Positions 24,863 to 63,982 of a DNA stretch of 64,000 nt are shown here, piece by piece; the first letter of the stretch is position 1, and each line of letters begins with the position of its first letter. The notes under the pieces were generated by a model that worked only from the letters and a program-made list of their open reading frames with translations, ran no database searches and was not told where the DNA came from. This DNA comes from Styela clava. Lineage: Eukaryota; Chordata; Ascidiacea; Stolidobranchia; Styelidae. The stretch is taken from positions 17,939,383-18,003,382 of the forward strand of contig NC_135252.1 of assembly GCF_964204865.1 (NCBI RefSeq). The letters are read 5' to 3'. The position numbers and the translations under genes were made by a program.

Positions 24863-25011
24863 TTATAAAACAGTCTCATATTGGCCAACTGCTATTTCGT
24901 ATGGATTCCATTCTGGAGGATCAGTGATGTCCTCGTAACCATGTGATGCTTCAGCAATCGTCTCATAAGTGTTGATTGACGTATTCAGATGATGTTGTGT
25001 ATCTGTAGTAC
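24863..25011 (-). CDS. Gene B exon 17: cytoplasmic tail with ITAM-like motif
   Basis: Follows acceptor GAAACAG and encodes 49 codons to TAA (24,865-24,863). Tyrosine motifs: Tyr764 in NTYETI, Tyr774 in HGYEDI, Tyr786 in NPYEIA and Tyr793 in GQYETV. YETI and YEDI are separated by exactly six residues, meeting the core ITAM rule YxxI/L-x6-8-YxxI/L, though the usual acidic residue at -3 is absent. None of the tyrosines has the S/I/V/L at -2 of a canonical ITIM. There is no PTP sequence between this exon and gene A. Confidence 0.85.
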
Positions 25012-28000: not shown

Positions 28001-30023
28001 CAGGTATCCTCGCGCAAGTATCGCCCTATTGAAGGCGGAAAACTCAATACGATAATACCATCACAAAAGTAGCAGAAGTGATGAAAGGAAGTAAACCACA
28101 GTGAGTGGCAAGGTGATCTCTATTTTTGGAGAATGAACCATAGAACTTCCGTCGACACATGCTGGGCATGAAGGCCCAAAGGGCTGGATTCCATCTATGT
28201 CGTCCTGATCCGTGAAGCTAAAAAAAAAAAAAAAAAAATGAAGCAGAGAAAGCCGATAGGTTACCGCGAAGGCGAAACACACTCGACCGTAAGCGGCGAC
28301 AACTGATACGGATGAGTGATCAGTCAGTGCATTTTGTTCAACTGCGACCGTGCGTAAGATTTCGAGAGAACTCTAGTGACCGTGCGTCAAGTGCTTACGA
28401 GGTCTTTGGTGAATCGCATTTAACAAGATTTCGCTATCACGATTCTGAGAGACACAGTTACGAGATCGTAAACCCGGCTTTTTACGAAGTTTAGCGGATG
28501 TCGCCCCTGATCTATGTACACAGAAACGACATCGTCATAAGTAAAGTCGGGATTCTTACCTGCTGGTACAGGTTCTATCTTTTCTTTTTTCGAAACGTTC
28601 AATGAAATGCTTGAAATAGTTCCATGGACGTCGTCTTTCCTTTTATTATTGCGATGTCTCACATAACACAGGCACACAAAAGCAGACAAAACAGCAAGCA
28701 TTCCTCCAGCTACCACTGCCCAGGTGATATCTGTGTGAAAAGTAAAATATAGACGTTAAGTAGTCACATGAAATTTAGAGAATTGAGAGAAAATTTTAAA
28801 ATAAATCCTCCATCTGTAACAAACTTCTATGTATTTTGTATATTACAATACCACACATTATATATTTAAACAAACTTTAACAATCATACCATAACCTCAA
28901 GTGGTCAAACCTTAATTACGTTTATTACGCTTATGCATAGAAACAGTTTTCATGATCAATCTATTGTGTCACAATTTGTGTTGCAATCTAATTAAGCTGA
29001 GTGTGTTAGTGTTAATAAGGAATGTATAAAACATTCAAATTGCAAATTTAATTTGATTGTTATCTGGAACAATCTTCCTGATTGAAAGCTTATTTAAAAA
29101 CGCTCAGCTCACTAAAACGTTGAATAAATAAAATTTTGCATTTAAAGAATTATTTGGTTCGTTGTGTACATTGAAAAATTTGTTTTGTGCTTTTAAGGTT
29201 TGTGTGTCTGTGTCTAGATGTCTGAGGTTAGTCACATGGCTCGCCAGCAGGAATTATTTTTGTGGTGTTCGCAAGATATTCATTCTAATGTGAATTTTTA
29301 ATTTCGGCGTAAAATTTTTCACTGTTGACAAAGAAACCGAAAGTAAAACTTTTTTTTTTTTTCAATCACCTGTAGGAGATTTGCCAATCAGAAGCCCTTC
29401 ACTAGCACCAAATGAAACGCTTTCTCTCGTAGGTGTAGAAGTCACAAGAAATATTCTGCAACATACAACGGTGTCATGTAATTAGTTCAATAATAAAAGA
29501 ATATATTGTTTATACTTAACTTTTTTATAGTTTTACTTTTTTTTTTATCTATAGCTGATATGCAAATAAATATCCGATAACTAATATAATCTATATATTC
29601 TTTTCATAATTGAATAGCACTAAAGTATTGCAAAAAAGAGCCGGTGTTTCAAAAAATGGTGCTTCCAACTCATTGTTCTATTATATATAATATATGTAAA
29701 ACTAAAAGAACGAGGGGTAAGTAGGGCAAGTGAGACTCGGCATTTTTGTACATCCATACAGAAGCAATGAAGTGTAATATTTGTGAAACGAAAACTTTAT
29801 TCTCGTACCTGTAACTGTCAGAGAGTGACAATCTATTGTTATATGCAACATACGTATTTTTTGAACTATACCCTTCACCACTGTTGTTATTTCCGCTAAT
29901 GTCACACCTTGTTTTTTTTTGATCTCCAAGAATCAGACTTATTTTCAAACGGTTTTGCCCAACGCTTTAAAAGGAAAACGTTTATTACACAATGTTTTGG
30001 TAATGACGTAGCATGTTGTACAG

Positions 30024-30064
<41 letters not shown>

Positions 30065-33000
30065 TCTGTTTACTAAAAATATTTATAATAGTTTTAGACT
30101 TAATAAATGTAATTATTAAAAAAAATTATTTATTCTAATATATTTGATCAAGTTGCATAAAAAACAAACCCACTAGAAGGGTTGTGTTCAGAGTTTTGCA
30201 GGATATAATATCAAACTGGCATTATTTGTAATTGTTATGATACGCCTACATACACCTAATTTACACAAAATTCGAAACTGCAAATCAGGAAGAATATATG
30301 TTTTGGCAACATCCCACAAAATAATATAGCATAATCCTAACATGATGTTCTATCTTGCTCGAAACGTTCATACGTGAATCATACCTGGTTCTGTTCAAAG
30401 CTATTGCAATATATTCATATTCAATTTCTGATTTATTCAGTTTACTCATTCGTGCATAGTTAAAATCAGGCCGAGTGTTGCTTGTTTTGTTGACTTGTAC
30501 GATGATAAAGTAACAACTAATAGTGTATAATAACATTGGTGATAAAAAAAAATTAGTAGCGTTCATGGATATTTATTACTATCTTTGAAATGTATTACAT
30601 TGAAGAAGTATACCGTGATCTCATAACCAATGTTTCAAATCCCGTATGGCAGCGTAATTCGCCAAAGGCAAACTTGAAAAGCATCGTCAGACGTTTCATT
30701 TGACCTATTGCAAGCATCAATTTTCATCTCTTTTCGGGCCACTAAAACAACTTTTTACTTTGGCGAGAAACATCAATTAGATAACCAAATCACCTTATAG
30801 GACCATTAGTTTCATCTGGAACGTGAATTGAAAATTCCAATATTCCAGAAGTAGTTACTTCACCTCTGGTTGAAGGTGCTTGAATGTTGGATGGTGCTGA
30901 AAATTAAAAACAAAGTAAAATTTTTAATAATTTATCATAATAAAGTCAACCAATCCGTTATGCGTTCAAATAAAGCTATAATGTACTGGGCCACTTGAGT
31001 GTGGTATTTGTAGAACGTAATCTAAATTTTTATAAAATCGAACCTGACCCGCAATTGCAAGCAAAATCTTAGCGGTATTTTAATAAATATTTAAAAAAAA
31101 ATTACAAGAGTCTAAAACAAATTGGAAGAGACTTAAAATTAATTCTGAATTACCATTGGTATCGGTAGCACATTCTCCAACAGCCTTTGACTCTGCTCCA
31201 AACCCTGCACAAGTTCTAGCTTGAATAGAGACATTGTATCTTCTATTGAAATTTTTTGGAAGAACATATGAGGTTATATGAGATGGTAGCAGCATTTCTT
31301 TCATTTTCACATCGTCTTTATAGTATGAGGACACTATGGCTTTTGTTGAGCTGATAACGAGCTGAAATGGAATGAATAGTTTCCGGGTATAAATATTTTT
31401 ACAATTTTCGAAATATTATTATCTATTTTTAGCGTCTAATTCTAATATATAGTTTTCAAGATGGAGTTGAATTTTGAAGAGGTTTATCGATTAAACCAAC
31501 TTGAACCACATCAAATTCTGAATCGACTGAAACAACTAACGTTTTTATATCACATGATAGTATCAAAACAGAAAGTGATTAAAATCGTCTTGTCATACAC
31601 GCTAACTCATTCACGCATTAGTATTCTTATATTAAACTATACAATTCGTCCTGTCATATAATGAGCTTCAAGCCAAATTAAACAGTAAAAAGAATACAAA
31701 CCTTGTAATCGGATACATATTCCGGATTCATTACTGTTGACCAAGATACATTGCAAGAACCGTCGTAAGTCATGTTCAGACTTGGTTTCGAAACAGGACC
31801 GGGGAGACCTCCAGTGGTTGCAAGTGTGGTTGTTGCATAATGACTGAAGCAAGTTGACGGGGTTGCTAAGCAGGGCTCAATCTAAAATAGAATTTTTTCC
31901 AATTTTCACTTTATATACGGCTATAGACGTTTGCACAAGAGAGATTTGTGCTCATTGAAATTTTATAATTTATATATTTCTCCATATAAATTACCTTAAT
32001 ATTATAGGATGTTGACGATTGAAGATCTGTCACATTGGATCTGATAGAGACATTATTCGGCGTTGTAAATGAATCTCTATAATTGCTGCTGTTAAGAGTA
32101 TCCACAATTCGAAATCTATGATATATATTTTTAAATTGTTTATGAAATAAGAATGAGGAAGGAAAATAATGGAAAAAAAAACTAAACCTAGCGAACACTA
32201 GGATACCAAATTAATGGTATGGAATTTTAAAGCAAACCGATTAGTTGAATTTAATATTTTAATTATTAGTAGGTAACGAGTACTTAGTAATTATCGCTGT
32301 AGTAATTATTTAAGGTATGGTAAATTAGTTTAGCCGCAAACTTTGTATATAGTATGCCACGTTAATTGAAGTATCATCAGCTTCAGTCAGATTCATTTTT
32401 TTTCATTCCTTTATTGTAAGTTTACTTCTGGGTAATTTCATTGGGCCGTAATTTGTGACAAGATATTAACATCGGAATGCAGGTGATCAGTCAAATGCAG
32501 CTAGATACCTGTGTTTAATTCCAACTCCAAGAACATGTGGTTTCCAAGTGATCAATAAATTGGAATTACAAGGTGACGATGTAATGTTGATGATTGATGG
32601 TTGACTTGGAACTGAAAATATATTCAAACTTGTTTGTATATATATATTTACCAGAACTGTTATATATATGATTGTATATTCTTTGTCACATATCAACATT
32701 AAATATTACGCTGTGAAAAGATATTCGAGCAATAATCAATTTTGTAGTTATTAATCTTGCTCAATGAAGCCAATTTATTTTTTGTTATAAAATTGTGTTT
32801 ATATATGTATGCATTTTATGTGAAACTTCATTGCTAACCTCACCTCGTATATTAAGGATACCTGAAACCGAATGAAGAATTTGTCCAACTGTATTTGATG
32901 CGAAACATTTGTATTGTCCTTCGTCTGCAATTGTCAATTGTTTTAGATCCAAAACTAATTTTTGCCCGTTTTTGATCTGATTATTTAATTTTGTTGAAGT

Positions 33001-36000
33001 AGGTACAATGTTTCCTTTCATCCATTTAACAGTCGGTGATGGATACCCAGATACCATGCACGTTATTTCTTTTTTGCCAGTATAGGAAGTTACAATGAAG
33101 TTAGTTTTTGATAACTGCATATCGTGCGGTCCAGCTGAAAATTTATATAGATGATACATTTATATATTTCAAATATTTAAACAAGACTCCGTGAAAAGGT
33201 AGGCTACAAGATGGAGTAAACTGCTAATTTAATGTAACGAATGTCATCTGCAATAAACCTTGATTGAAGTTTCAATAATTTGTTCTATTTTACCTTGTTC
33301 GCAAATGTAGTAATGCTTGTCAGTACAATATGTGGTTCTTGATGTGTAATCACTCAATGAAAATGAATAGCAAGTAGAACCTGTGTTTTCTAACCAAAGT
33401 TTATCAGCAGGTCTGAAATGACTAAAAATCGTGAATTTACAAAATTAAATATGTTTGTTTTCATTTAGCCCAATATTCATTTTCGATATTTACTTACTCG
33501 GAATTTAAATGGCCCTTGATGAGAGATCTCGTGGCCGATGTCAATTTCAAAATTCGAGATTGGAGTTTATAGCATTCTGTTCGAGCTGTTTCATAAGTAA
33601 CTTTAGGGTGAGGACTTCCAATTGCAGTCAGTCTGTATATTCCCGAAGAAATTGTAAAGGGCATCGCTAGATCGAAACAGTATGAAAATGTAGGCACAAA
33701 TGGTTGTTGGTTCATGTTTCGGTTTATAAAAAAAAAAAACACGTTCAAAATACTTTGGGCTCATTATTTTGTCCAAACGTTCATTATTTTGTTTATGTTT
33801 TGGTTTATAAAAAAACACAAAACGTTTAATAGTGTTTACTTCAGACTCAATATTTTTTTCGAACGCGTGAGTTTATTATAAATACATCTCGATAACTACT
33901 GTGCCAAAGTGAATTTAGGTAAAAATAAGCCGAACCTTTTGCTCCCATAAATCATTTTGATTTAATAAAAATTTATGGGCGTGAGGTGATTATATGATAA
34001 TATATTATATAAAAGATCATGTAATCATTTAATAACAAATATTGTTATAAGCAATATATTCTACAAAGATATGTAAGTTCAATTTACCCCTGCCATTCTT
34101 TATATCAAGCTTCAATATAAAATCAAAATACATTCTTACCAATACTAATGCTGATATCCATACAATGAAGGCAATGGGAATGCCAGGCAACATAATAATA
34201 GTTATAAACTATTCATAAGTTGTAGAATTTTTCATTTGGCAACAATGTCATAGAAACATTAATATTTAAAGAGTTTCATTCAAATATTGCTCTTATGGCT
34301 GGATGATATTAAGTATTTTGATGAAAATAATAAGATTGTGAAAACCAATCGACCATTGACTGAGGAAAATCATATATATCAAATAAATTTTGTTTTATAT
34401 ATATATCGTGATAATTTTTGTTTAACGTTACAAACATTTATATATATGATTGGTTTGCTGACCTTCCATACATTTAACTCCTGATTGGTAGTTTGATCCA
34501 AAATCATAAAATTTTCCGTTCCTGTCAATGACGAGATAATTTTCATTCCTTCTTCCGTTTGGTTCTGCTGAATTCCTACAAAGTATCAAAACGTGCAATA
34601 ACAAATTAAAGATTTTTTATGTTAAATTTTATATGGAACTTGCGCAAATATGAATATTCCTGCGTGAATGCCCTTTACCAATATGTGCAAATATGACCTT
34701 CATTATTTGAAAATATTTTATCTACAAATAAAATCTTGTACATTATCGTCAGGCTGATAACCAAATCACGTAAGTCACTCTTTGGCGGTTTTGAGTTTTA
34801 TTTTTATACAAGAGTTATTTATGTAATGCTGCTCACCAGTCAGTGGATTCAAATTTTATACCAAGGATTCCCAAACGCATAAAAATGGAGATTAAGATGG
34901 CATGCACATTGTTGGCATTGTTATGGTTTACCACGAGACTATTGTGACGCCACAAAGACAAAACGAGAATATCAGTCAGAGACCGAAGACTTATCGAGTG
35001 AAATTTGGGGGATCCCCCAAAACAGCGCTCTTACTCCATAGTGACACCTTGTGTCCCATCACTAATTAAATATTAACTCGCTAGTTATACGACATAATTC
35101 GCCCAAAATCAATAGTAATAATAATAGCTTTTGTTTCGACAGACAGACAGACAAATACCTATCAACATACTTTACCGATTAAAATCGATAAGTAATAACA
35201 TCGGTGGAGTATTTTTTGAGTTTTTGCATCGTAGATCCCAGCTTGTAAATTTGATTTCTAGTTTATAAATTCAAATTTACACTACAGCAGGCCTGTCCAA
35301 CCTTTTTCATCTCGCGGGCCACTTTCACATGACGAAATTCGTTGCGGGCCGCAAACGTTTGTACCAAATTTTAATACCAGCCAAGTCATGATCTCGTTAG
35401 AATTTACTTAATATATATAAGGCAAGATTATTAACATAAAATCAAACAAGTTAATAATTATTTACTGGTTACTGATTAGTGCTGGCGAAATTTTAGAATA
35501 TGAAGTCTAATATTAGAATAGCAGTTTAATATTCGAATATCTGGTAACCCAAGGCGTGGACATGACACTCGCGGGTCGCTGATTTGAAAAATCAATCATC
35601 AAACAACGCACTTGTGAATATCTGACGACCACACGAGAATTTGCAGAGTTTTCACTAACAAACAAAGACGTCAAAATTGAGTCTTATATTTGAGTCATAG
35701 TGTTTTTTATTTATTTATTTTCAGTGGCTATGACATTGTCTCAATGAGCTTAATGTGCACCAATGTCGCGGAAACATCAAGTTTTAGTGGGCCGTTTTGT
35801 AAAATTTGAAACATCAATACAAGTTTTTAATGAAAAAAAAAACATTACAATAACTTCTGGACGAATATATATACTAATTTGATATGTGGAATTGCCATTA
35901 AGTATATTTTATCAGAATTATTGATGAATACGCAGTGACGATATTCCCGACATTTTATTTGACGCAATTCTTATAATTGCGCTCTTCGTTCGTCGCCTGT

Positions 36001-40140: not shown

Positions 40141-40420
40141 ATGCGTACAAAACTCTTACAAATCCGGGAAAAAGCACACACTATAATTGTTCCAAATGAT
40201 ATTTAAAAAAACAATTTTTATTTCAATGCAAAAGTATTGATTTTGCTAAAATAATATAAACATTTCCTACAGATAGGGGGCTGCGCTTTAATGGCGCTGC
40301 ATGGATATTGCTTTATTTTGGAAGTACCACAAGGTGTCGAGAAAAGTTTATAAATTCATCGTTACAGTTCCGACAATCTTGAAAGATATTATTGGATTGG
40401 TAAAGCTGACAACGCTATCA

Positions 40421-45592: not shown

Positions 45593-45599
45593 TACGAGA

Positions 45600-46920: not shown

Positions 46921-46924
46921 GAAT

Positions 46925-47846: not shown

Positions 47847-47904
47847 ATGCTTGGGTGCAATTGCTGGTTTGTTCTGTTAACATTCCTTGCAACATCTAGT
47901 GCAG
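47847..47904 (+). CDS. Gene C exon 1: signal peptide
   Basis: Encodes [19 protein letters not shown] from ATG 47,847, then a phase-1 GT donor. Near-identical to gene B exon 1, confirming the start. Confidence 0.9.
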
Positions 47905-50900
47905 GTATTGAAAATTATGAATTTTACCTTTTTTGTATTTATAGTTATAATATGTAACAATAAGTTGTCTGCATTAGGCAATGTCACATGTTACTAAGTA
48001 TTCAGTAAATTAAGTTCAAATATAAATGACATGTTGTACTTTTGTATTTGTAGTTTTGCTTTAGGTAGTAACATAGCCATTTTTGCAATTTGATTCATGA
48101 AGTAATTATTTTCTGTATCATCTCACCCGTGATACCTAGCGTCTAAAGTTACCTTTATCATTCCCGAAAACTTATAAATTCCGTGATTCACAGATAATGT
48201 TTGAGATGAATGATTGTTATTTTTTAGAACTTTGGAAGACAGTAACCCGACCTTTTTATAAACTAACTTTTTACAACACTAAGCATTCCTGGTCAGGAGC
48301 AAAATCCTTGTGTGGGAGCCGATCAAGTCTTGTTCAACTTGATGTTGCCTCTGTAAAAAATGACGTTCTCAACACAATCAGAAGGTGATGATTTATTTGA
48401 TGTTTACTCTTATCTTCGTTCGCTTCAACAGCGTTAGTAAAGTTTAGCAGTATTCCTACCGACCATCCTGAGGCCATTTTGTAGGGTCACTTCCAAACTT
48501 TTTCTCATCAACCATTAGGTCTTTAAACGTCACTCATGTCTTTTCAAATGCGTTCGCTATACATATAGTCCGCAAGATGTTGCTAGAGCGCGCTTTTCCA
48601 AATATCATTTTGGATATGCGACTGACCCAATGCCTCAAAATTTGTAAAGAATAAACTTAGACTTGAGTGTTGTTGTGTCTAGTAGTTTATACCAATTAAA
48701 TATTATTAGTTCTATCGTTTTCTTATGGTATTTTCCAACAAAACAACACCACAATCATTATTATAGCTAAAATGTTACGGAGAAATTCACAGATGTATTT
48801 ACGTAATTTACGAATTCAACACTGAACTTAACATGTTCATGACGTCACACCCTATTTATTACCCAATTATTACTGCACGAAGGCGTCATAATGCAACAAA
48901 CTGTATTTTTTCAACGATAATATGCGTGAAAAGTCGTTACGAAGCTAAAACCGTTACCGAGAAATTCACAGTTGTATCTATGTAATTTACAAATTCAACA
49001 CTGAACTTAACAAGTTCATGACGTCACATCCTAATTATTACTGCACGGAGGCGTCCTAATGCAACAAATGTCATTTTTTTCAACGATAATATGCGTAAAA
49101 AAGTCGTAAACAAGTCAATATGCGCCGTTACAATGAAATTCACAATTAATTTTAGGTTGCTTTTACGTTTGGTTGTTATTAATTCTTAGCAGGTTTTCAA
49201 AGCTCTGACTTTACATTTTTAAATCGGAGCTATTTATTTATATTTCGGACATTTTTTGACGATGCTAAAGCGTTTTATTGTGTATCTTTACAACAGACGT
49301 TTACAGATAAATCGTTGACGTATGAGACATTAACTCTTGTTGACCATTCAAATTAGAATCCTACATTAATGTACACATAACTAACCTCCCGCAAGATAGG
49401 GAATTTATGAATCAGGTCTCTGTGGCGATTTAGTCAAGTCTATAATACAATAAACAAGAAAGCGATGCTCAAATATATAGAAATGGAGTTGTACGGAAAT
49501 ACATAAAAGTAATAGCTTTGTAGCGAAAATAGAATCTTTATCTACTGGAAATTTAAAGCAATTGATCCAGCAGTACAAAAACACTAATTGCAACATGAAC
49601 AACGACAAAGTAAGAACAAAACAATCCATATGTCCACCTCGTGTCTTAAAACTAAAATAATTATGTTGTGTCTATCAAAATGAATGAGTAAAATTGTTAA
49701 TGCTTGAAAATGTTTAGTTGTGAGCTTAGCAGGAATGGGAATGTACTAGAGAAACTTAAATCAGAAAATTCAATATGTTGTAGTTCTGGATCCGCTTATT
49801 GGGTTGGAGCAACAGATGAAGCCAAAGAAGGCCATTGGAAATGGATGGATGGATCTTCAGCATCGATTACTCCTTGGTAAATAGTTTTTTTTATAAATTC
49901 TCACTATTACAAATTTATCGTCACGCCAATAACCGAATTGCGTAAGTCATTTTTAGCAGTTTTGAGAGAAACGTAAAAAACTTCCTAATAATATTGTTAC
50001 GCCATTGAGAGTCAATAATTTGCCATGGTTCATTTTTTTAGTCGTAGCCGGATTTAAATAAATTTGTATGACGCAGGCATGTGACGTCATATTAGGGAAC
50101 TGTGACTTACGCAGAAATGTGTCTATGACTTGGGGACATACGCACCATCAGTCCTAAAAACCAAACATTCAAAAAACGTATGTAATTTACAGTACCTACA
50201 ATGTGTAATCCCAAAACAGCGTATCTGTTTCATAACATTATTTTTTAATATAACGCTATACGCTATATAATATTAATATAACGCGCTCTGCACACCCAAC
50301 AAAAATAACTTTTCCCAAATATCAAATATAAAGAATAAAATAGCGATGCATCTCAAATAATAGACAGACAACATGAATTAGACTGGGAAAGTGGATATCC
50401 CAAGTGCCCACTTTTCTATGCTGTAGTGTAAATTCAAATTTATAAACAAGAATTTAAATTTTTAAGCTAGATTCTACGATGCAAAAGTTACTCCACCTAT
50501 GTAATTTTGCCTGTTTGACGTCACAATAGTCGCAATGTGCATGTCACCTGAATCTCCATCTTATGCGTTTCGAAATCCTTGAGATAAAATCGGAGTTTAC
50601 TGACAGATGAGCATCATAACATAAATAACTTTTGTATAAAAAAACTCAAAACTCAGAGTGACTTACGCAGTTACGTTATCAGCTTGACGATATTGTGCAA
50701 GATTTTATTTGTAGATAAAATATTTTCAAGTAATGGCGGTCGGTCATAGGTAGAAAGCACATACTTGTAACGGGAATTTACGCAGGAATAATAATTTTTT
50801 CGAAAATTCCATTCAAAATTTATTATAAAAAATACTTCAATTTGTTATTGCACGTTTTGATACTTTGTAGGAATCCAGGAGAGCCAAGTGGGGGAAGAAG

Positions 50901-53900
50901 TGAAAATTATCTCGTCATTGACAAGAAAGGACATTTTTATGATTTTGGATCAAACCACCAAACAGGAGTTATATGCATGGAAGGTCAGCAAACCAATAGT
51001 ATATATAAATGTTTGTATCGCTATATAAAAATTATCACGATATATATATATATAAGTTTTAACAACCATTTTCGTTTCACTCTTTTTTAATTAGCAAATA
51101 AACAGGAATTTCTTCAATAACTTCATTGGATTATTTATTCCATCAAGAATTTGTGTGTTTTCTAATGGTCAATTGGCTTTCACAATCTTATAAGAGCAAT
51201 ACTTGAATGAAACTCTTTAAATATTGATGTTTCTATGAAATTGTTGCCAAATGAAAGTCCACAACTTATGAATAGTTTATAATTACTATTATGTTGCCTG
51301 GCATTTCCATTGCTTTCATTGCATGGATGGCGGCATTAGTAAGAATGTAGTTTGATTTTATATCAAAGCTTGATATAAAGAATGTCAGGGGTAAATTTAA
51401 TTTACATATCTTTGTAGAATATATTGCTTATAATAATAATTGTGATTGAATAATTACATGATATTTTATATATTATATTATCATCTACGCCCATAAATTT
51501 TTAATAAATCAAAATAATTAATGGAAGCAAAAGGTTCGGCTCATTTTTGCGTGAATTCGTTTTGACACAGTGGTTATCGAGGTATATAATAAACTCACGC
51601 GTTTAAAAAAAAATAATGAGTCTAAACCAGTGCTCCTCAACCTTTTTTGGAATGGTACACCTTTTTAACCTTTTCTAAAAATCTGGTGCACCCCCCTCAT
51701 TCTACATTTTCAATACGTAAAACACTCAATGTTTAGAAGTTATATATGTTTATGTCAACGCAATAGTTCGATATCTAGTTAATATGAACGTTGTTCCTGG
51801 ATTCTATCAGCCAGCTGTGCAAAGCGAGGTAACAACCTTGTTTCCAGTGCTCATCTCATTATAGTATCTACAGTCTACGCCCCTTGACTAAGTTTTATTG
51901 ATCAAATTTCATTGAGTGCAAAAAAGTCTTGTTTGGAAAGGTATGCTTCAAGCATTCGGACGAGAATGGTAACGGCATTTTGCGCAAGATTGGGATACCC
52001 TGGAAATTCTAGTAGTGCGGCCCTAAATTCGTCCTAGTTTTTATATTTTTTGAACTCTGCCTTTTGCATCAGATCTGGTCGTAATCAAAGATGTTCAACA
52101 GTTAGGTGGGCAATAGCAACCACTTCAATTGTGAATGGCTGAACGACCCATATTTATTAGACCACCAATATTCTAATATTCTACAGCCTGATAATAGGCT
52201 CCGAAGTTTAGCCGTAGCAAGATGCTCATGTAGCCTACAATTGATCTCATCTTGGTTTGCATGTTTGGGTTTCCATCTTCCCATTTAAAAGGATTAATGA
52301 GATAGTCCAGACATTCAAAATAGGAAACATTACAACTTGCTACATTATTTTGCCGCAACTTTAATTCGTTTTAAAACACGGAATTGTGCTATCCAGCTTC
52401 AAAAATGTCAAGTTCTTCACCTTGCATCGATAAATTTAGCTGATTTTCATAGCTTAGTTATTCGAGACATGAGGCTCTCAACATATGCACCGTTAACAAG
52501 ATATCACATTGCTATAAAAAGGTATTATGACGTTAAATTATGACAAGCAGATAACAGAAAATTGCAGACATAAATTAGCCATAAGTTCACAATACATGTA
52601 TAGGTCAGATATTGCATAGGCTACCATTGCCTATTTTTAGCGTATTTAATCAGAATATCGTGTGTTAGTATGTACCCTACAACATTCGGTACGGTACACC
52701 GCAGGTACACCCTATCGATTTGGTATTCATAGTTTTGGGTACACCCTGGAGTGTCTGAACTTTATTTTGTCCAAACGTTTTTTGTTTTTTTTTAAACCAA
52801 AACATGAGCAAAACAATAAACGTTTGGACAAAATAATGAGCCCAAGCTCTATACAACGTGTTGTGTTTTTTATAAACCAAAACCTGAACCAACAACTAAT
52901 CTTGCTTACATTTTTATATTGTTTTGATTTAGTGATTCCCTTTACAATTTCTTCGGAAATATACAGACTGACCGCAATTGGAAGTCCTCACCCTAAAGTT
53001 ATTTATGAAACAGCTCGAACAGCATGCGCAAAAATCCAATCTCGAAATTTGAAATTGACATCGGCCACAAAACCTCTTATTAAGGGCCATTTAAATTCTG
53101 AGTAAGTAAATATCGAAAATGAATATTGGGCTAAATGAAACAAAACAAAATTTAATTTTGTAAATTTATTATTTTTAGTCAATTCAGACCTGATGATAAA
53201 CTCTGGTTAGAACACACAAGTTCTACTTGCTATTCATTTTCATTGAGTGATTACACATCAAGAACCACACATTGTACTGACAAGCATTACTACATTTGCG
53301 AACAAGGTAAAATAGGACAAAAATATTGAAACTTCAATCAAGATTTATTGCAAATGAAATTCGTTACATTAAATTAGCAGTTTACTCCATCTTGTAGCTT
53401 TTCACGGAGTCTTGTTTAAATATTTGAAATATATAAATGTATCATCTATATAAATTTTCAGCTGGAGCGCATGATATGCAGTTATCACAAACTAACTTCA
53501 TTGTAACTTCATATACTGGCAAAAAAGAAATAACGTGCATGGCATCTGGGTTTCCACCACCGACTGTTAAATGGATGAGAGGAAAAACTGCAATTAAATC
53601 AACATCAATAAATCACCTAGCTAAAGTTGGACAAAAATTAGTTTTGGATCTAAAACAATTGACAATTGCAGACGAAGGACAATACAAATGTTTCGCATCA
53701 AATACAGTTGGACAAATTCTTTATTCGGTTTCAGGTATCCTTAATATACAAGGTGAGATTAGCAATGAAGTTTCACATAAAATGCATACATATATAAATA
53801 CAATTTTATAACAAAAAATAAATTGGCTTCATTGAGCAGGATTAATAACTTCAAAATTGATTATTGCTTGACTATTTTTTCACAACGTAATATTTAATGT

Positions 53901-56900
53901 TGATATGTGTCAAAGAATATACAATCATATATATAACAGTTCTGGTAAATATATATATACATACAAGTTTGAATATATTTTCAGTTCCAAGTCAACCATC
54001 AATCATCAACATTACATCGTCACCTTGTAATTCCAATTTATTGATCACTTGGAAACCACATGTCTGTGGACTTGGAATAAAACACAGGTATTTAACTACA
54101 TATGGATAATCACTTGCATTCCGGTGTTAATATCTTGCCACAAATTACGGCCCAGTGGAATTACCCAGAACTTACAATAAAAGAATGATAAAAATGAATC
54201 TGACTGAAGCTGATGATGCTTTACTTAACGTGGCATACTATATACAAAGTTTGCGGTTAAACTAACTTAGCATACTATAAATAATTACTAAAACGATAAA
54301 CACTACAAACATATTACTAGAAAAAGAAGGACTTATTACTTACTAATAATTAAAATACTAAATTCAAATAATCGGTTTGCTTTAAAATTCCATACCATTA
54401 ATTTGGTATCCTAGTGTTCACTAGGTTTAGTTTTTTTCCCATTAATTTTCTTCCTCATTCTTATTTCAAAAACAATTTGAATATACATATGTCATAGATT
54501 TCGGATTGTGGATACTCTTAACAGCAGCAATTATAGAATTTCATTTACAACGCCGAATAATGTCTCTATCACATCCAATGTGACAGATCTTCAACCGTCA
54601 ACATCCTATATTATTAAGGTAATTTCCATGGAGGAATATATAAATTATAAAATTTCAATGAGCACAAATCTCTCTTGTGCAAACGCCTGTGGCCAAAAAT
54701 AAAGTAAAAATTTGAAAAAATATTCTATTTTAGATTGAGCCATGCTTAACAACCCCGCCAACTTGCTTCAGCCATTATGCAACAACCACACATGCAACCA
54801 CTGGAGGTCTCCTAGGTCCTGTTTTAAAACCAAGTCTGAAAATGAATTACGACGGTTCTTGCAATGTATCTTGGTCAACAGTAACAATAATGAATCCGAA
54901 ATATATATACGATTACAAAGTTTGTATTCTTTTTACTGTTTAATTCGGCTTGTGGCTCATTATATGACAGGACGTATAGTTTAATATTGGAATACTAATG
55001 CTTGAATGAGTTAGCGTATATGACAAGACGATTTTTCTCACTTCCTGTTCAAACGTGGATACTATCATGTGACATAAACATATTGGTTGTTTCAGTCGAT
55101 TTAGAATTTCATGTGGTTCAAGTTGGTTTAATTTAGTTTAATTGCTACAGCTCTTCGAAATTAAACTCCATCTTGAAAACTATATATTGACGCTAAAAAT
55201 AGTTAATAAGATATCGCAAATTGTAAAAATATTTATACCCTAAAACTATTCATTCCATTTCAGCTCGTCATCAGCTCAGCAAAAGCCATAGTGTCCTCGT
55301 ACTATAAAGATGATTTCAAAATGATTGAAATGCTGCTACCATCTCATATAACCTCATATGTTCTTCCAAAAAATTTCAATAGAAAATACAATGTCTCTAT
55401 TCGAGCTAAAACTTGTGCAGGGTTTGGAGCAGAGTCAAAGGCTGTTGAAGAATGTGCTACCGATACCAATGGTAATTCAGAATTTATTTTTAGTTTTTAT
55501 TCTAATTCGTTTTAGACTCCAATTATCAACAGTATACATTCTGAAGTCATGTGTTTACGAAATAATCGCTTTAAATGTATTTATTCAAACAAATATCTTT
55601 ATTGCATTTCCGCTAAGATTTACCTTGCAATTGCGGGTCAGATTCGATTTTATAAAATTGTAGAATTTGTTGTAAAAACACGACAATCAAGTAGCCCAGA
55701 AAATTACAGCATTTATTTGAACGCATAACGGATATGCTCATTTTCTTAGGAAGAATAAATGAAATTTTTACATTTGTTTGTAATTTACAGCACCATCCAA
55801 CATTCAGACACCAACAACCATAGATAAAATAAGTAAATCTGGAATATTGGGATTCTCAATTAACATTCCAGATGAAACAAATGGTCCTATAAGGTGATTT
55901 TATACTCGATGTTTCTCGGCAAGGTAAAAGTTGTTAAGAATTAAAATAACAGTTATGAGATCTGGGTAAACCCAATCCATGCTTTTTCATCCATCAGACT
56001 CAAACAAGTTTGCAGGGAATAGTAAGACTATTTTTCCATTGTAAAGATAGTGACAACTATCCATAAATGGTACTGATTTTTTTATAACCGATGTTATTAT
56101 ACACTAACAGTTGTTACTTTATCATCGTACAACTCAACGAAACAAGCAACACTTTGCCTGATTTCAACACTGTACGTATGAATAAACTGAATAATTCAGA
56201 AATTGAAGATGAATATATTGCAATAGCTTTAAACAGAACCAGGTATGATACTTGAACGTTTTCAACATGATGTCATATTATCTGAGAATTACGTATAATT
56301 ATTGTGTGGGATTTCTTCTGTTGCCAAAACATACGTTCTTCCTGATTTGCTGCTTCTAATTTGTGTTAATTAGGTGTATGTAGGCGTAACATAACATTTA
56401 CACATATATAATAACAGTTTGATATTATATCCTGAAAAACTCTAATTACAATCCATCTAGTGGGTTTGTTATATATACAATGTAATCAAATTTATTTGAA
56501 TAGATAAACTTGTACATATTGACATTTATTAAAACCCAGACTAATAATTTTTTAGTAACAGAATCATGTATACATACATATACAATATGATATTTCCTTG
56601 CCAAAACAATGTGTGTTACATATTTTCCTTTTGAAGCATTGGGCATAACCGTCCGAAAATAAGTCTGATTCTTGGAGATCAAGTAAAAACAAGGTGTGAC
56701 ATCAGCGGAAATAACGACAGTGGTAATGGGAATAATTCAAAAAATACGTATGCTGCATATAACAAGAGATTGTCATCCGCTGAAACTTACAGGTACGATA
56801 ATAAAGTTTTCGTTCCTCGAATATTACACTTCATTGCTTCTTTATAGGAGTCCAAAAACGCCATGTCCCACCCGACCTACTTGCAATGCACGATTATAGT

Positions 56901-59900
56901 TTTATTTATTGTATAAAGGGAATAAATAGATATGACTTTTGGGTAACGGATATAAATCTGCATATCACCTGCAGATAAAAAAGCCTTGATACTATTTTTT
57001 AAGTCAAAAATAAACAATATATATGTAATTTTTGACCTAACTACATGCCACCGTTTTATTTTGCAGAATATTTCTCGTGACTTCTACACCAACTAAAGAA
57101 GGAATTTCATTCGGTGTTAGTGACGCACTCGTGGTCGGGAAACAGCTTGCAGGTGATTGAAAAAAGAAACAAAATATAACTTTCGATTACTTTGTCAGAA
57201 TGAATAAAAAAATAAACACTGAATGAATGAAAAAATAAACAAACTTTAACATCCGATTTCTATCAGAAAGTGAACATTTTTACACGAAAAAGAATTTCAC
57301 GATAATGTATACAGTTCGCAAACACCGCAAAAAAAAGTTGCGCATGAGCTATAATATATTGAACGAGAATATCAGTCAGAGACCGAAGACTAGCGATCGA
57401 AAGTTAGGGGATCCCCCAAAACAGCGCTCTTACTCCATAGTGACACCTTGTGTCCCACTACTAATAAATTAATAACTCGCTAATTATACGACCTAATTCA
57501 TCCAAAATCAATAGGCTTCTGGTACGACATATGATAAATGCACATGCAAAATCTGGAGCAGATTTAATCTTGCTTTCGTGAGATATCGCGTGCATCTAAC
57601 AGACAGACAAAGAGACAAACAAACAGACAGACAAATACCTATCAACATACTTACCTAAAATCGATAAGTAATTAGGGTGGTCGAAACTGCGGCCCGCCAA
57701 CACATTCCGTGCGGCCCGAAAACAATTTTGGCGTACACTACTAAACCATTGGCAAATTGTATTTATTAGCAAGAACAATTTTGATTTTTTTTAAACTTTT
57801 CCAACTGGTAGTAGTCCTTTTTCTGACCCCGATGTCGGGATTAAAGTTTGTAAAAATCACGGAATTTTATTGTTGTATCTCTAAAAAGGTCAAGACGGTG
57901 GCTATGTGGGAATGAAGTTCCGTGATCGATAAAAGGAGAATGAATTGTCTTGCGCATACACGACCTTTTCGTTTGAAGAGACGTTTTGTGCCTTTATTTC
58001 AGTCAAAACACAATATTTAAGCGTTGGCCACGTGATAGCAGTGACGAACCGCAGAGCCGTCTTGGCGCCGACATTACAAAACCAAACACGAGAAAAGATA
58101 CCGAAAATACCACGATATGTCTTGGGAAGCAATTTGAAAATAACTGAAGGCTTATATAGTTCTCTTGGAAACTGATTAGAACGATAAACTCTGATTCCTA
58201 AATATATTTAAGTGAGATTTTCTCCGACTGCGCCCCGCGAGACCTCCCTCAAAGGTTTTTGCGTCCATTCAACCTCGCAACACTGGACCACCCTTTATTA
58301 AATAGTTCTACTAATCTATATAATAATATATTGTTGCAGATGAGTGGAAAACTTTTTTTATTATTGGATTGGCCGTGGTAGTTTGCATATTGCTAGCTGT
58401 TGTAATCTTTTTCACAGTCAGGTATTTAGCTTTTTACTACGATCAATAGGTTGGAATAATTAATTTTAAGACAAAAAAAATTGTTGAATAAGATTAGAAC
58501 AATAATCCTTAACTGCTACCATTCGAATACTTCTTTAATTTTTTTGTAAACGTGGAGGTTGATTAAATTACCGAATTAAAAACATCATTGCGTAAATCAT
58601 GGCGTATAATTTGATACGCAGCAGAAAACAGAAGTATGGCTGAAGTAAACTGGGTTATTCGATTCGAATGCAAATTGTGATCGACAAACTAAGTACCTTT
58701 TTTTCCTCCTTCTCATGTGTAACCAAAAGAATTTTTTACCTGCAATAGACAAAGAACAAAATCTAACAAGATAATCGATCAAATAGTTCAATATCGAAAC
58801 AATGCACAAGGTAATGACAATCACGTTTCTGAATTTTTGATTATCAAAAGTTTCATTTATTCGAAGCGTATTAATATGCAGTAAATGAATATGATAAAAC
58901 GTACAGATAACTTGTAATTAGAATAATTACTGCATTATTAAACGAGTATTTTTGTTACGCAGTTGAAGAAGAAGAAATACCAAGCACAAATGTTCCACTG
59001 AGTAATTTTGAAGATTATTACAGGAATCTATTTCATAATGAGAAAGCATTATTTCGCGAACAGTTCAAGGTAATCTGAATAAAAGTTGAGAAAATTGATT
59101 TTATTTATACAAAGTATGTTTGAATAATCATTTTAGCATGTGGTAAATACAAAAAGATTATAGCGTAATCCTGAATTTTGGATTGGTATCGTTTTTATTT
59201 GGAAATAACTTATTTTCAGAGAATAAAAATTGAATCAAAAGCAAATATGAAAAGTACAACGTTCGCATCTACTCCTGAATTGAAGAGGAAAAATAGATAT
59301 AAAAACATATTACCATGTTAGTGCAAATTATTTCTTTTGAGTAAAGCATTTATGAGATGATCAAATTTTATGTGATATCATTATTTTATTTAAAAGTATA
59401 CGATGTATTTATACTATTTGCACTCCGAACATAGCTCTTGGCCACAGGTTGGTAACTCTTTCCGTTCGGCATTATATACCCGATTCAACAAATAGTGACT
59501 GAGGTGGCTGACATATTGGTTAAACTTGAGATTTTAATCAGCGATATTAGTTAAGTCCAACACGTCAGCCACTCGGCTACCGCGCCCATGCAGTATTTAA
59601 AGTTTGAATATATGTTTAAATTTTGAACATTCATTTTTTCACAAAGGACTTAAAATAACACTGCGAGGACCAAAGAAAATATAAATATCCAAAGTTTGTT
59701 GTCTTTCTTATAGATGACGAAACTCGTGTTTGGATCAAAGCTAATGACACCGGATACATCAATGCATGCTACGTTAATGTAAGTGGTGTTTTAAAAACAA
59801 CTATGATTTAAAATGGATAATTCACACCCTTGAATTCATATATATGGAAAATATATATTGAACTAGTCTTGTGATTGCTTTAGCATCATGATTTCGACCC

Positions 59901-62900
59901 TAGATTTTATGTGTGGCATACGTACCGTTTTAGGCGGGACAGTCCCACTTTTTAACATACTGACCTGCATCCCGACCGGTCAGCCAAAAGTCCCACTTTG
60001 GCGTTCAGCCAGCCAGCATAATACACAAACATTACCAATTAGCATGTTCTCGTTACTGTTGCTGCTGCGTAGCGTACCCGTAGCCTACCTATATTGAAGG
60101 GGAATTTTCAGTGATTCGTTAGCAGATAATTGGTGCAATATGTTACCTGTGAGGTTTGAACGTCAAGAGATTGTTGCTCAGTAGAACGTGAAAACCGTTA
60201 TCAGATGTAAAATCAATACTAATACTCTGACATTTACAAAAAAGTAACACTGAACAACGTCTTTTTGAGAAATGTGTTATACACAGAAAAGTATTATTGG
60301 GTGAATAAGTAAATTCTTAATGCTTGAAAACGGAAGGATATTTTATTATTCTTTCTTACCTTTGCTGTACATAAAAAAATCAAAATTCGAATTATTTTGT
60401 ATGGTAAATGTCAATTCCTTTCTGTTTTTCGAACTGAAACTGATATTTAGGCAGAAAACATGCGCATGAACACTCGATGACAATATGTTCAATGAAGACA
60501 GCCGGGATGGCTTCAAATGTAGGCCAATGTATTAAAATTGGAAAATGTAAATTTAAAAATCATGTAGATAAGGGGTCTTGGACATTGGAAGCGACTCGCT
60601 TTGAAGTCACAAATATATGGTTACCATATAATTTTGTATATATATATAACAATATATTATGTATAATACAATAATTTACTTCAAAAGTACTTTCCTTTTT
60701 TATTTACTTTACGTTCTTTAACCTTCCATATTGTCGACACTAACAGGGTTATGCTAAATCACGTAAATACATCGCAACTCAAGGTCCTTTGCCAACAACT
60801 GTTGATGATTTTTGGTTGATGGTCGTTGAGCAGGAATGTAAAGTCATTGTTATGCTGGCAAAATGTTTTGAAGCAGGAAAAGTAAGAAAAATCGTTAGCA
60901 ATATAGAAATATTTGTATATAAAGACTGCAAATGACGTATACATAGTGAACAAATTAACTGCTAGAATATATATATATATATATATATTGTTTAATTTTT
61001 TTAATTAAGAATATTTTCATTCTGTATTTGTAGAAAAAATGTCAAAAGTACTGGCCAGATTATGGAATTACTTCTACTTTCGGAGTAGTTAAAGTTTTCA
61101 ACTCAGAAGAAGTGAAATATTCCGGCTTTGTACGGAGAATATTTCAAGTAGAAACAAATGATGGGGTTTGTATGATATTGTTTTATAAGCAGCAGGCAAA
61201 AAGTTTATTAAGTCCTTCTGGTTAATAAAATTCTAATTTTCATTCAAATATGTTACGTGGCAATGAATTTGACAATGGGTTCAAACAATTCTCTTTCAGA
61301 ATATAGCAATGGAAGTATTGCAATACCAATATGTTAACTGGCCCGACCATGACATACCATTCACAACATCGAATCTTGTTAGAATGCATAAAGTTGTGAT
61401 TCAATGTTTAGAAGAATTTGCGGATGATACGCCAATGATTGTGCATTGCAGGTAACTGATGTATTTTCTTTTGCGAAATTAAAAAGTATTTCAGATATTT
61501 AACTCAGTATAATGACGATGATTGAAAGATAACACAAACTAGATTATATTCATAAAATTTGAATGAAATAATCTTCAATTTAGTGCTGGTGCTGGAAGGA
61601 CGGGGACATTTATAGGATACGACTATTTGCTCGAAGAAGGAAGAGATACAGGAAATGTTGATGTATTACAATGCGTATTGAAGATGAGATCTCAACGTGT
61701 CGATATGATACAAAATAGCGTCAGTGCTTTATTTTATCTTTTTTGATCATCGATTTTTGAGAGTTCTGGTAACATAGAAATTAATAAAAATAGCAGCTTG
61801 CAACTTTCGACTGTCAGTTAGTTTGAGTAGAAGATATTGCTGTCAATGGAAAGAGATTTTTTAAAACTTAAACAATCGTTGCATCCTCAGGATCAATACA
61901 TACTTCTACACAAGTTGATTCTGGAAAACTACCTGTTTAAGAATACTGATTATAATGCACAGGATATCTGGCACAAATTTCAAGAAATAACAGGGTAAGA
62001 TTAACCACAAAGAGCGAGCGAGCTAGTATTGCATTTGAAACAAGGGAGCAGTGTTCACATGTATGGACACGAATTAGTACGGTTGTGCAATCTGTTATGG
62101 TAGATCACCGTAGTCCCGTAGACTTCATCTGACAACCAGATAGCGGCACAAGATGCGCAATTTTTAATTTCGATGACGTCATCGCACATAAAAATGAATC
62201 CTATACTATACAGCCAACGGAACGTTTTGAAATAAATAAAGTAATAGTTTTCGAGCAAAAAACACAATCTTCATCTATTGGAAAAGGTCCATTATTTAAT
62301 TAGGACAGAGATTTTTCCATAGCAACAAGAATACAAAATGACAAAACGATCCATCGGTCCACGTCGTGTTCAAAACAAAGTAAGACTAGTATTTCTAATA
62401 ATAAAATATATTTGCTGTTATTTGACTAAAGGGTTAGGGAAGGAAAGTGTAATTTTTCATATTCAATTTAGCCATGAAAAACGAAGAGAGTTTCGTGATG
62501 AATTTGAGAAATTGTCAATATTAGAACCTTTGAAATGTTCTAAACTGATTGGAAGACGTTATGAAAATAGAAGATACAATATATCAGACGATGTGATTCC
62601 TTGTAAGTTGAACTATATAATATAATATTTCACATTATTGCGTATTTGTATATATTTATATTCCCACTTTGTTTTTTTTTTTCTGATCGTATCAGACGAT
62701 CATAATGCAGTTGTTTTGATAATGTGCAACAATGAAGCAAGTGTGCCATATGTAAATGCATCGTGGATAGAGGTAAGACAAATAAGTAACTGCTGTTGAA
62801 ATATTTTTGAACATCACAGATTTTTATTAGCATTGATTTTGGTATGTCATGTAGCCTACGTGTTTAAAATAATTATCAAATGTTAACTTTTACCAAAGGT

Positions 62901-63982
62901 CATATCTTGATATAATGCATATTTATCACAGACTTACGATGAAAGCACAAGTATGATTGCAGCACAAGCACCGATGAACGAAGGAATTCCATTCTTTTGG
63001 AGATCTGTACTGGATAACAGAGTTAATACTATTATCATGCTAGCTTGTGTTGAGGTAAGTTTCCATAAATGCCAAATTTTTATTTAGCCAACTTGGTTTG
63101 GTTGAAATTAGTATAGGTTGTTTTCAAATCGACTATCCAGTAGAACAGTAAAAAGTATACCGCTCCAGTAATTATATCCCGATTTATGGGCTTTCAGTCA
63201 GTTAATACCCGGATTCCGTTAAACAAAAAGCAAATTCATGAAAACTAGTGGTATTTGAAGCAAACTGTATTGAAGAGTATATTAGCAAGATTGTTGCTCA
63301 TCGTTATCGTAGTACTAAAACCTAAAACCTGAGATAATTTTTACTCATCACAATCTTTGCGATAATATTTTACCATAGTTATACACCATATTCACATAGT
63401 CAAGCATGCGAATTCAAATATTTATGAAGTGAAAACTGCAATTCTGCAAAACTACACTCGCACATGCAATTTTCTAATCCCAAAGATGATGTACTAATTT
63501 CCTACACAGGAGGGCATTCAGTATTGGCCACACGATGTTCGCGCTACGTTGAGCATGGAAAACGTTTCTGTTACCTTGATGGAAGAAAATATAAATGGAT
63601 CAATATCTCGTAGAAATTTTAAAGTCTTCAGAGGAAGCCAACAGGTTAAACTACATAGAAATTATATATTATGTTTTTATACTAGAAAACGATACTGATA
63701 ACTATTTATGATGAAAATCAATATTCGATATTATAAAGCTTACAAATATATGCTTCATGGCTTTCATTTTCAAAATCTTTGTCAAAGTATGAAGGACAGT
63801 GCAAATATGCGAATATCTAAGTGTGACAAGTTTTAAATTTAGACTCATGTTACTCAAATACAATATTCTGGCTGGAGCAATGAACAATGCCCAGAAGATG
63901 GAAGCATGGTTTTGAATATCATAGGGGAGATGCAGAGAAATGCAAGAAGTGTGCGGGGATCTGCTTGTCTTATCCACTGCAC
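47847..63982 (+). CDS. Gene C: CTLD-CTLD-Ig-FN3 receptor tyrosine phosphatase (3' end outside window)
   Basis: Thirty exons: 47,847-47,904; 48,228-48,384; 49,784-49,876; 50,871-50,983; 52,933-53,101; 53,179-53,306; 53,462-53,752; 53,985-54,087; 54,498-54,618; 54,734-54,919; 55,264-55,471; 55,791-55,893; 56,111-56,242; 56,664-56,792; 57,067-57,152; 58,340-58,421; 58,749-58,810; 58,963-59,069; 59,220-59,316; 59,714-59,778; 60,747-60,881; 61,034-61,165; 61,300-61,451; 61,584-61,719; 61,891-61,994; 62,472-62,602; 62,696-62,772; 62,932-63,054; 63,510-63,644; 63,843-63,982. Phases agree throughout, giving ~1,251 residues without a stop. Ectodomain as gene B, TM ~695-718, D1 ~770-1,070 with KNRY, WPD (933-935) and [10 protein letters not shown] (Cys969, Arg975), and D2 up to its HC (Cys1251). 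D1 should dephosphorylate tyrosines at the membrane. The remaining exons are modelled by pseudogene A (P-loop exon, then last helix and stop). Confidence 0.9.
48228..50983 (+). CDS. Gene C exons 2-4: first C-type lectin-like domain
   Basis: Exon 2 encodes [20 protein letters not shown] and [10 protein letters not shown]; exon 3 [20 protein letters not shown]; exon 4 [20 protein letters not shown] and GVICME. The EPN of gene B is EPS here, which would alter a Ca2+/sugar-contact position, so the two receptors may differ in ligand detail. Confidence 0.85.
51629..52760. mobile_element. hAT-like insertion in gene C intron 4
   Basis: Left end CAGTGCTCCTCAACC, right end (reverse complement) CACTCCAGGGTGTACC, with an imperfect direct repeat TCTAAAC / TCTGAAC outside. 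The equivalent gene B intron (near 33,850 on the minus strand) reads straight through this point, so the insertion came after the B/C split. A 60-residue open frame inside has no motif. Confidence 0.6.
52933..53306 (+). CDS. Gene C exons 5-6: second C-type lectin-like region
   Basis: [20 protein letters not shown] and [14 protein letters not shown] in exon 5; a C-terminal half ending [10 protein letters not shown] in exon 6. As in gene B, it is short and lacks the usual WIG/EPN core. Confidence 0.78.
53462..53752 (+). CDS. Gene C exon 7: immunoglobulin (I-set) domain
   Basis: [18 protein letters not shown] then a segment very different from gene B (roughly residues 267-283), then [18 protein letters not shown], identical to gene B. 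The exon has symmetric phase 1-1. Confidence 0.92.
57360..57672 (+). repeat. ~300-bp dispersed repeat family, copy 6 (best full-length copy)
   Basis: Starts GAACGAGAATATCAGTCAGAG, contains AGCGATCGAAAGTTAGGGG, ATCCCCCAAAACAGCGCTC, GTGACACCTTGTGTCC, ATGCACATGCAAAATCTGG, GTGAGATATCGCGTGCATC, a (CAGA)n stretch and ends AAAATCGATAAGTAAT. It lies in intron 15 of gene C, immediately before a hAT-like element. Confidence 0.88.
57673..58312. mobile_element. hAT-like nonautonomous element in gene C intron 15
   Basis: Short terminal inverted repeats AGGGTGGTC / GACCACCCT with a GCGGCCCG-rich subterminal region (CGAAACTGCGGCCCGCC). A relative lies at 40,421-41,640. No clear 8-bp target duplication was found. 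It ends 28 bp before the TM exon of gene C. Confidence 0.7.
58340..58421 (+). CDS. Gene C exon 16: transmembrane helix
   Basis: Encodes [20 protein letters not shown] then VVIFFTVR, a single helix. It shares no similarity with the TM exon of gene B although the preceding exon is clearly homologous. Pseudogene A has lost this exon by deletion. Confidence 0.9.
59220..61994 (+). CDS. Gene C exons 19-25: PTP domain D1
   Basis: Motifs in order: [16 protein letters not shown] (pTyr loop), [55 protein letters not shown] (WPD loop), IVHC joined to [19 protein letters not shown] (P-loop, CX5R), and [19 protein letters not shown] (Q-loop). Everything needed for catalysis is present: Cys969, Arg975, Asp935. 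Confidence 0.93.
59500..59593 (-). repeat. tRNA-derived SINE head in gene C intron 19
   Basis: Minus strand reads GGGCGCGGTAGCCGAGTGGC then TGACGTGTTGGACTTAA, a tRNA-like A-box region. The matching sequence in gene A (16,878-16,966) is in the same intron, at a similar distance from the next exon and in the same relative orientation. Confidence 0.65.
59915..60633. mobile_element. Nonautonomous DNA transposon, relative of 16,977-17,616
   Basis: Left part CGTACCGTTTTAGGCGGGAC, right part GCTTTGAAGTCACAAATATA and GGTTACCATA match the ends of the gene A element in reverse order. It is in intron 20 of gene C, whereas the gene A copy is in intron 19, so the insertions are separate events. Confidence 0.65.
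62472..63982 (+). CDS. Gene C exons 26-30: PTP domain D2 (partial, likely pseudophosphatase)
   Basis: [37 protein letters not shown] (KNRY-like position is ENRR), [47 protein letters not shown], then [18 protein letters not shown] where the WPD loop should be, ending SACLIHC at the window edge. With WSN instead of WPD the general acid is missing, so D2 is probably regulatory, as in many RPTPs. Confidence 0.88.

Follow-up and report, generated by a model that had tools for sequence, protein, structure and literature searches.

The 64,000-nucleotide stretch of the ascidian Styela clava analysed here (the window, C3:17939383-18003382; the genome searched comprises 376.6 Mb in 379 contigs) carries two genes, B and C, that place nearly the same ectodomain on two unrelated signalling ends: a tail resembling an immunoreceptor tyrosine-based activation motif (ITAM) in B, and tandem protein tyrosine phosphatase (PTP) domains, D1 and D2, in C. 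Both belong to a cluster of 16 copies. We rate at somewhat better than even the chance that this is a germline cluster of tunicate paired receptors, in which a kinase-coupled tail would be set against a built-in phosphatase on overlapping ligands. The reading is carried by the anatomy of the genes, their copy number, the intermixing of their ectodomains, the constraint on D1 and D2 and a SYK-type kinase gene in the same genome.

An earlier note on this stretch had claimed that B and C share a signal peptide, two lectin-like regions (here the C-type lectin-like domains CTLD1 and CTLD2), an immunoglobulin (Ig) domain and a fibronectin type III (FN3) stalk, and that they lie in divergent orientation. 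Both claims are borne out by the exon models (Table 1). The first 15 exons pair off one to one, the Pfam matches of B (Lectin_C 2e-12, I-set 1.1e-11, fn3 3.2e-6) recur in C, and the genes stand head to head, B on the minus and C on the plus strand, with start codons 8849 bases apart. Exon DNA identity is 0.845-0.966 over the first 14 exons and intron identity 0.63-0.97; the whole block was therefore duplicated in inverted orientation. Among the matches listed, translated similarity stops about 16 bases into the intron behind the stalk exon, and the transmembrane exons of the two genes do not match each other. The Ig exon differs at 31 of 291 positions, against 15 of 386 in its flanking introns (Fisher p 0.0006, the comparison having been picked after inspection of 14 exons), an excess that may reflect diversifying selection or a converted stretch.

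The two signalling ends were also largely read correctly. B does end in a 49-residue exon (25011-24863, including YETIAEASHGYEDI) with the YxxI motifs YETI and YEDI, but its tyrosines number four and not two alone, the others lying in YEIA and YETV. The tail fits the ITAM pattern YxxL/I-x6-12-YxxL/I; a YxxL/I pair at x6-8 arises by chance in 0.7% of shuffled B tails (n=20000), and one at x6-12 in 1.7% of 20000. CD79 ITAMs likewise have YEDI as their second half. The phosphatase end of C agrees with the note as well: Pfam finds Y_phosphatase (7.4e-130) in two stretches, and D1, which is predicted to be active, carries the catalytic motifs KNRY, WPD, HCx5R and the Q loop expected of a tandem PTP. 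D2, which lies partly past the window, is probably weak or inactive, since WSNEQCPED stands at the place of WPD, though Cx5R is kept. The best PDB sequence matches of the PTP part are PTPRS (PTP-sigma, 3e-105), LAR (2e-104) and PTPRA (PTP-alpha, 8e-104), with PTP-epsilon and CD45 also present. The juxtamembrane YxxL/I sites of the PTP class (YRNL, YKNI/YRNI) have, by eye, no S/I/V/L at -2.

When 240 kb rightward of the window were added and exons located by tblastn, 16 copies (A to P) with a whole or partial ectodomain were found. Ten carry transmembrane and ITAM-like tail exons (B, D, F, H, I, J, K, L, M and N, the tail class), four carry PTP domains (C, E, O and P, the PTP class) and two, A and G, are pseudogenes. 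Their order and strands are A-, B-, C+, D-, E+, F-, G-, H- and I+, followed by J to P in tandem, all +. The single isolated head-to-head pair implied by the earlier note is thereby ruled out; what stands of its proposal of paired receptors is one ectodomain on two unrelated signalling ends, in several copies each. There are three head-to-head blocks, B/C and D/E joining a tail gene to a PTP gene and H/I joining two tail genes, with relic exons inside each. Complete models with 0 internal stops were obtained for B, D, F, H and K in the tail class and for C, O and P in the PTP class. This count of eight rests on the looser splice rule; a stricter splice-site score, which removed one exon each from K, O and P, and from L beyond its stalk exon, reduces the complete models to B, C, D, F and H.

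Key motifs of both signalling ends are kept across the copies. WPDH and AGAGRTG are conserved in all four PTP-class members. The ten tails follow the common pattern (T/S)xxTQxHLxxSINTYETI...GYE(D/E)I...(E/D)WNPY(E/D)IA(V/I)xQYE(T/D)(V/I)L, in which M has S for G. All four tyrosines are retained in every tail (40/40), and the YxxI-x6-YxxI spacing in eight of the ten. The query made of tail and transmembrane exons gave 27 genome matches listed, 25 of them inside the cluster and the others at E 3.2 and 6.7.

The lectin-like domains vary more. Among the 13 copies having the exon, the Ca-site motif of CTLD1 is EPN in nine, EPS in two (C and H), QPN in J and DPN in K; the WND motif could be recognised by eye in none of the 13, and sugar binding should not be taken as implied. 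A weak Lectin_C match to CTLD2 was found in all nine paralogues supplied, out of the 14 that have this domain (best 2.8e-6); for B it is 3.2e-4, below the curated cut-off, and a PDB profile search with CTLD2 gave nothing significant (best E 0.12).

Constraint was compared over the 14 copies other than A and G, as mean dN over mean dS of all pairs of 14, 10 or 4 genes (91, 45 and 6 pairs); pairs with fewer than five synonymous sites were to be skipped, and none fell below this cut-off. The values are 0.17 for D1, 0.18 for D2, 0.31 for the transmembrane and juxtamembrane part of the PTP class, 0.43 for FN3, 0.44 for CTLD1, 0.44 for the tail, 0.54 for Ig (the values of copy I being inflated by a frame change), 0.63 for CTLD2 and 0.64 for the transmembrane exon of the tail class, at a mean dS by domain of 0.14-0.42. 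D1 and D2 are thus strongly constrained while the outer part drifts.

Pieces of the ectodomain have been exchanged between the classes, since PTP-class members are scattered among tail-class ectodomains on the trees, built from the same 14 copies. Of the new findings, this scatter speaks most strongly for paired receptors. For CTLD1+2, the tree needs four changes of the PTP label, the maximum possible (mean of shuffled labels 3.6; all 500 shuffles as low), and a single PTP clade is rejected by the approximately unbiased test (p-AU 1e-6). On the FN3 tree the label requires three, as few as in 130 of 500 shuffles, and a single clade is again rejected (p-AU 3e-54). J, a tail gene, and O, a PTP gene, are sisters at 100/100 in the CTLD tree and not in the FN3 tree. 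The 400 nt upstream are alike in all 91 pairs of the 14 copies (0.61-0.95, mean 0.73; J-O 0.92, B-C 0.89). Control stretches aligned in the same manner averaged 0.37-0.39 when shuffled and 0.36-0.39 when random (three sets each); the upstream likeness is compatible with shared regulation.

A candidate kinase partner is encoded on C5, as a 615-residue single open frame without introns that comprises two SH2 domains and a tyrosine kinase domain (stretch L041, 113-1960, minus strand). Its nearest PDB chains are SYK and ZAP-70 entries, behind a 678-residue entry labelled EGFR (chain not inspected). The gene was located by the kinase query.

We propose that both classes would be displayed on the surface of the same cells. 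YETI and YEDI of the tail class would serve as substrates of a Src-type kinase, and the tandem-SH2 SYK-type kinase would dock there and signal. The PTP class would act as a receptor phosphatase through its active-looking D1, D2 being without WPD. Equal-length, near-identical ectodomains would allow both classes to gather at one contact, from which the phosphatase would not be excluded because the lengths are equal. A ligand bound by both classes would keep the tail dephosphorylated and off; one bound by the tail class only would let signalling start. Exchange of segments between classes would keep the ligand ranges overlapping while the CTLDs and the Ig domain drift.

Several observations weigh against this scheme. 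The ligands of B and C may differ, since the Ca-site motif of CTLD1 is EPN in B and EPS in C. The dN/dS of the tail, which rests on few changes, does not fall below the CTLD1 and FN3 values, and only two of the three head-to-head blocks join an ITAM-like to a PTP gene. The ITAM-like character that the earlier note claimed for B holds, by spacing, in eight of the ten tails; those of J and K are spaced x4 and have no ITAM spacing. Six tails (I, J, K, L, M and N) carry SQYETV, an ITIM-consensus site (the inhibitory counterpart of the ITAM) at the last tyrosine, so that, together with the x4 spacing, an inhibitory or mixed role is conceivable for some of the tails. Many vertebrate ITAMs have an acidic residue just before the first tyrosine, which the tails of the cluster do not. 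Finally, copy E is without two CTLD1 exons, L and M carry a GC donor replacing GT after the stalk exon, I is one base short in an A run of the Ig exon, CTLD1 of J has at least one in-frame stop and a frame change (its modelled signal exon also ends in a stop) and N has lost one acceptor.

Damage in A, E, G, I, J and N, like the relics between genes and the EPN/EPS difference between B and C, would fit a plain birth-and-death family, with unrelated ligands, classes expressed in separate cells and a mixing due to unequal crossing-over only. We consider this rather unlikely, given that both classes of tail remain intact despite repeated exchange and that the upstream regions are similar. The probabilities that we attach to the preferred and to the rival readings are not mutually exclusive.

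CD45, a receptor PTP (RPTP), can promote ITAM signalling, and the PTP class might likewise promote that of the tail class by freeing Src-type kinases from an inhibitory tyrosine. CD45 is excluded from contacts; the matched ectodomains of the cluster would instead place the phosphatase at the same ligated tail, which makes a CD45-like role unlikely. It remains that CD45 is found with PTP-sigma, LAR, PTP-alpha and PTP-epsilon among the best PDB matches of D1 and D2, and that ampullae of Botryllus express CD45-like RPTPs and Syk-family kinases alongside proteins of the ITAM/ITIM pathway, according to a review (PMC12065747).

It is more doubtful still that the tail is a sorting signal, in which YETI, YEDI and YETV would serve as AP-2 type endocytosis signals of an uptake receptor. 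All ten copies have three YxxL/I/V motifs per tail and the CTLDs would suit uptake, but the four tyrosines are conserved within 46-48 residues, eight of ten tails keep the x6 spacing, and E follows the tyrosine in 39 of 40 cases (D once, in J). An E at +1 suits SH2 domains better than AP-2. An assembly artefact, that is, inverted haplotype copies merged into one contig, would accord with the inverted B and C arms, about 90% alike in many stretches, and with the high heterozygosity of tunicates, but is very improbable, as the 3' ends differ and a single contig of 25.6 Mb holds 16 copies, some in tandem and some inverted, diverged at the dS given above.

Two ways of deriving both ends from fewer genes were also rejected. 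If a single gene were spliced alternatively to yield both tails, exons of both types should lie near it; at E 0.02, neither a tail exon nor a tail-type transmembrane exon was found near C or E, nor a PTP transmembrane exon near B, D, F and H. The use by B of the PTP exons of gene A is unlikely, D1 of A being broken and its transmembrane and juxtamembrane exons not found. The first two CTLD1 exons of A were not found either, its Ig and third CTLD1 exon are traces at most, and to the left of A no strong Ig or FN3 match appeared among the best candidates scored from a genome-wide query.

The paired-receptor reading has its closest parallels in vertebrates, where such receptors were worked out. 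The families KIR, LILR, PIR, SIRP, Ly49, CEACAM and Siglec are likewise clustered, with near-identical ectodomains on opposite-type tails and exchange of ectodomains between classes. The inhibitory member there bears ITIMs that recruit SHP-1/2, so that soluble SHP phosphatases supply the inhibition, and the activating member mostly borrows the ITAM of an adaptor. In the cluster, by contrast, the phosphatase is built into the receptor, the ITAM-like tail is part of the receptor itself and the ectodomain has another make-up; the usual, non-defining trait of an ITIM and a recruited SHP on the inhibitory member is replaced by PTP domains of its own. Vertebrate natural killer (NK) C-type lectin receptors are type II membrane proteins with one C-terminal CTLD, a plan distinct from the signal peptide, two N-terminal CTLDs, Ig and FN3 preceding the transmembrane segment here. 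Tentatively, and with no great likelihood, the cluster could work like an NK complex in an invertebrate chordate, its inhibitory arm being the phosphatase itself and its receptors, of matched length and with drifting lectin and Ig faces, reading self or microbial ligands; if true, the balance of built-in ITAM and phosphatase would decide, for example, missing-self, allorecognition or blood-cell responses.

RPTPs of the LAR/PTP-sigma and alpha types have, as gene C, tandem PTP domains with an active-looking D1; C differs in its lectin-like ectodomain, common to a tail class free of PTP, and in a D2 without WPD. In 1997 Pancer reportedly described a C-type lectin of Botryllus that is joined to an Ig domain. 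Joins of lectin and PTP may not be new in themselves, since PTP-GMC1 is listed among the CTLD-containing proteins of Fugu (PMC514892). For neither the Botryllus nor the Fugu protein do the available portions of the sources describe an ectodomain shared with an ITAM-like partner.

An ascidian ITAM protein is already on record in the hemocyte membrane glycoprotein of Halocynthia roretzi, which we take to be A74. It has two ITAMs and acts in phagocytosis and aggregation, and the portion of its description at hand mentions no PTP partner (PMC5465252). The term paired receptors is used here as defined in PMC3533184, the cluster showing highly similar ectodomains on different signalling ends and exchange of ectodomains within a gene cluster. 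The nearest tunicate case is that of the fester family and fester co-receptors (FF/FcoR) of Botryllus, which form germline multigene pairs; FcoR tails carry ITIM, hemITAM or YxxI/L/V core motifs (PMC12065747). FcoRs consist of V-type Ig, sushi and two C2-type Ig domains, and the accessible part of that source describes no PTP member (PMC12065747), whereas B and C have no sushi match in Pfam.

Among the papers listed from the open-licence literature, as judged from titles and abstract starts, we recognised no description of such a tail/PTP receptor pair, and no paper on PTPRLec, a sea-urchin name. If true, the proposed system would be an independent solution to paired-receptor control in the sister group of vertebrates, and a two-gene system for the kinase-phosphatase balance at a contact, with neither adaptor nor recruited phosphatase.

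Table 1. Features of genes A, B and C and of the region between B and C (positions in the window).
Feature	Position	Strand	Remarks
Gene A, decayed PTP-type copy	13283..21385	-	Stop at W of WPD; HC changed to HY (catalytic Cys is Tyr)
Gene B	38998 to 24863	-	17 exons, 803 aa; GT/AG ends throughout, in phase
B exon 1	38941..38998	-	Signal peptide (19 residues)
B exons 2-4	38613-38457, 36886-36791, 34575-34463	-	C-type lectin domain 1, EPN motif
B exons 5-6	33666-33498, 33412-33294	-	Degenerate C-type lectin domain 2
B exon 7	32844..33134	-	Ig (I-set) domain
B exons 8-11	32611-32509, 32115-31995, 31881-31702, 31361-31154	-	FN3-like stalk
B exons 12-15	30896-30794, 30516-30385, 29964-29809, 29455-29370	-	FN3-like stalk
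B exon 16	28560..28730	-	Own transmembrane segment and juxtamembrane region; differs from the transmembrane exon of C
B exon 17	24863..25011	-	49-codon ITAM-like tail and stop; YETI-x6-YEDI plus YEIA, YETV
Region between start codons of B and C	38999..47846		Divergent; 400 nt upstream of each gene 89% identical
Relic between B and C	42066..42580	-	Stalk and transmembrane exons resembling a tail-class copy
Relic between B and C	44453..45601	+	FN3 exons of another copy
Gene C	from 47847, ending 608 nt beyond the window	+	32 exons (30 inside the window), 1329 aa
C exon 1	47847..47904	+	Signal peptide (19 residues)
C exons 2-4	48228-48384, 49784-49876, 50871-50983	+	CTLD1, EPS instead of EPN
C CTLD2	52933-53101, 53188-53306	+	
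C Ig	53462-53752	+	
C FN3 stalk	53985-57152	+	Exons 2-15 together 48228..57152
C exon 16	58340..58421	+	Transmembrane segment
C juxtamembrane exons and PTP D1	58749..61994	+	With Q loop
C PTP D2, part within the window	62472..63982	+	Without WPD
C last two exons	64094-64229, 64528-64608	+	D2 Cx5R loop and C-terminus; numbering continued past the window

Outside the cluster, C2 holds an additional PTP-type copy at around 18.42 Mb. Close to this copy, which is on the minus strand, one of the two remaining tail-query matches (C2:18432710-18432808, plus strand) reads NGYEQI...NPF-stop...GQYKNI. An ITAM-type tail outside the cluster was rejected on these two matches, both being weak and the one on C2 a decayed relative at most; the latter may be a remnant of an earlier head-to-head pair. 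Other large groups of PTP exons occur on C1 (24.8-26.4 Mb) and C2 (10.87-11.45 Mb), with at least 152 PTP exon matches genome-wide.

Marker queries on the same genome gave 58 exon matches for connexin and one for GH6 (E 1.5e-6). Innexin gave none, but that query had no match in any control genome either, and a lack of innexins should not be read from it; the 14 control genomes (those named being prokaryotes) matched none of the connexin, innexin or GH6 queries. COX1 had no match in the assembly. To our knowledge, connexins are confined to vertebrates and tunicates, and animal GH6 to the tunicate cellulose synthase. With connexins split into exons, the markers point to a tunicate.

Two possible traces of mobile elements were read by eye. 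Within the last intron of gene B (28560-25011) are CCHC zinc knuckle frames similar to ORF1 of long interspersed nuclear elements (26353-27991, plus strand); the counterpart of this intron in copy D measures about 0.6 kb. Between B and C, a frame resembles the DNA-binding part of a transposase (43292-43672, minus strand). A short dispersed repeat recurs in and around the genes at 7014-7127, 22755-22877, 34954-35088, 41762-41884, 43842-43976 and 57353-57487. Finally, a direct repeat about 3.65 kb apart (212-511 and 3864-4141, 89-94% alike) is widened by translated matches to about 2-511 and 3645-4141.

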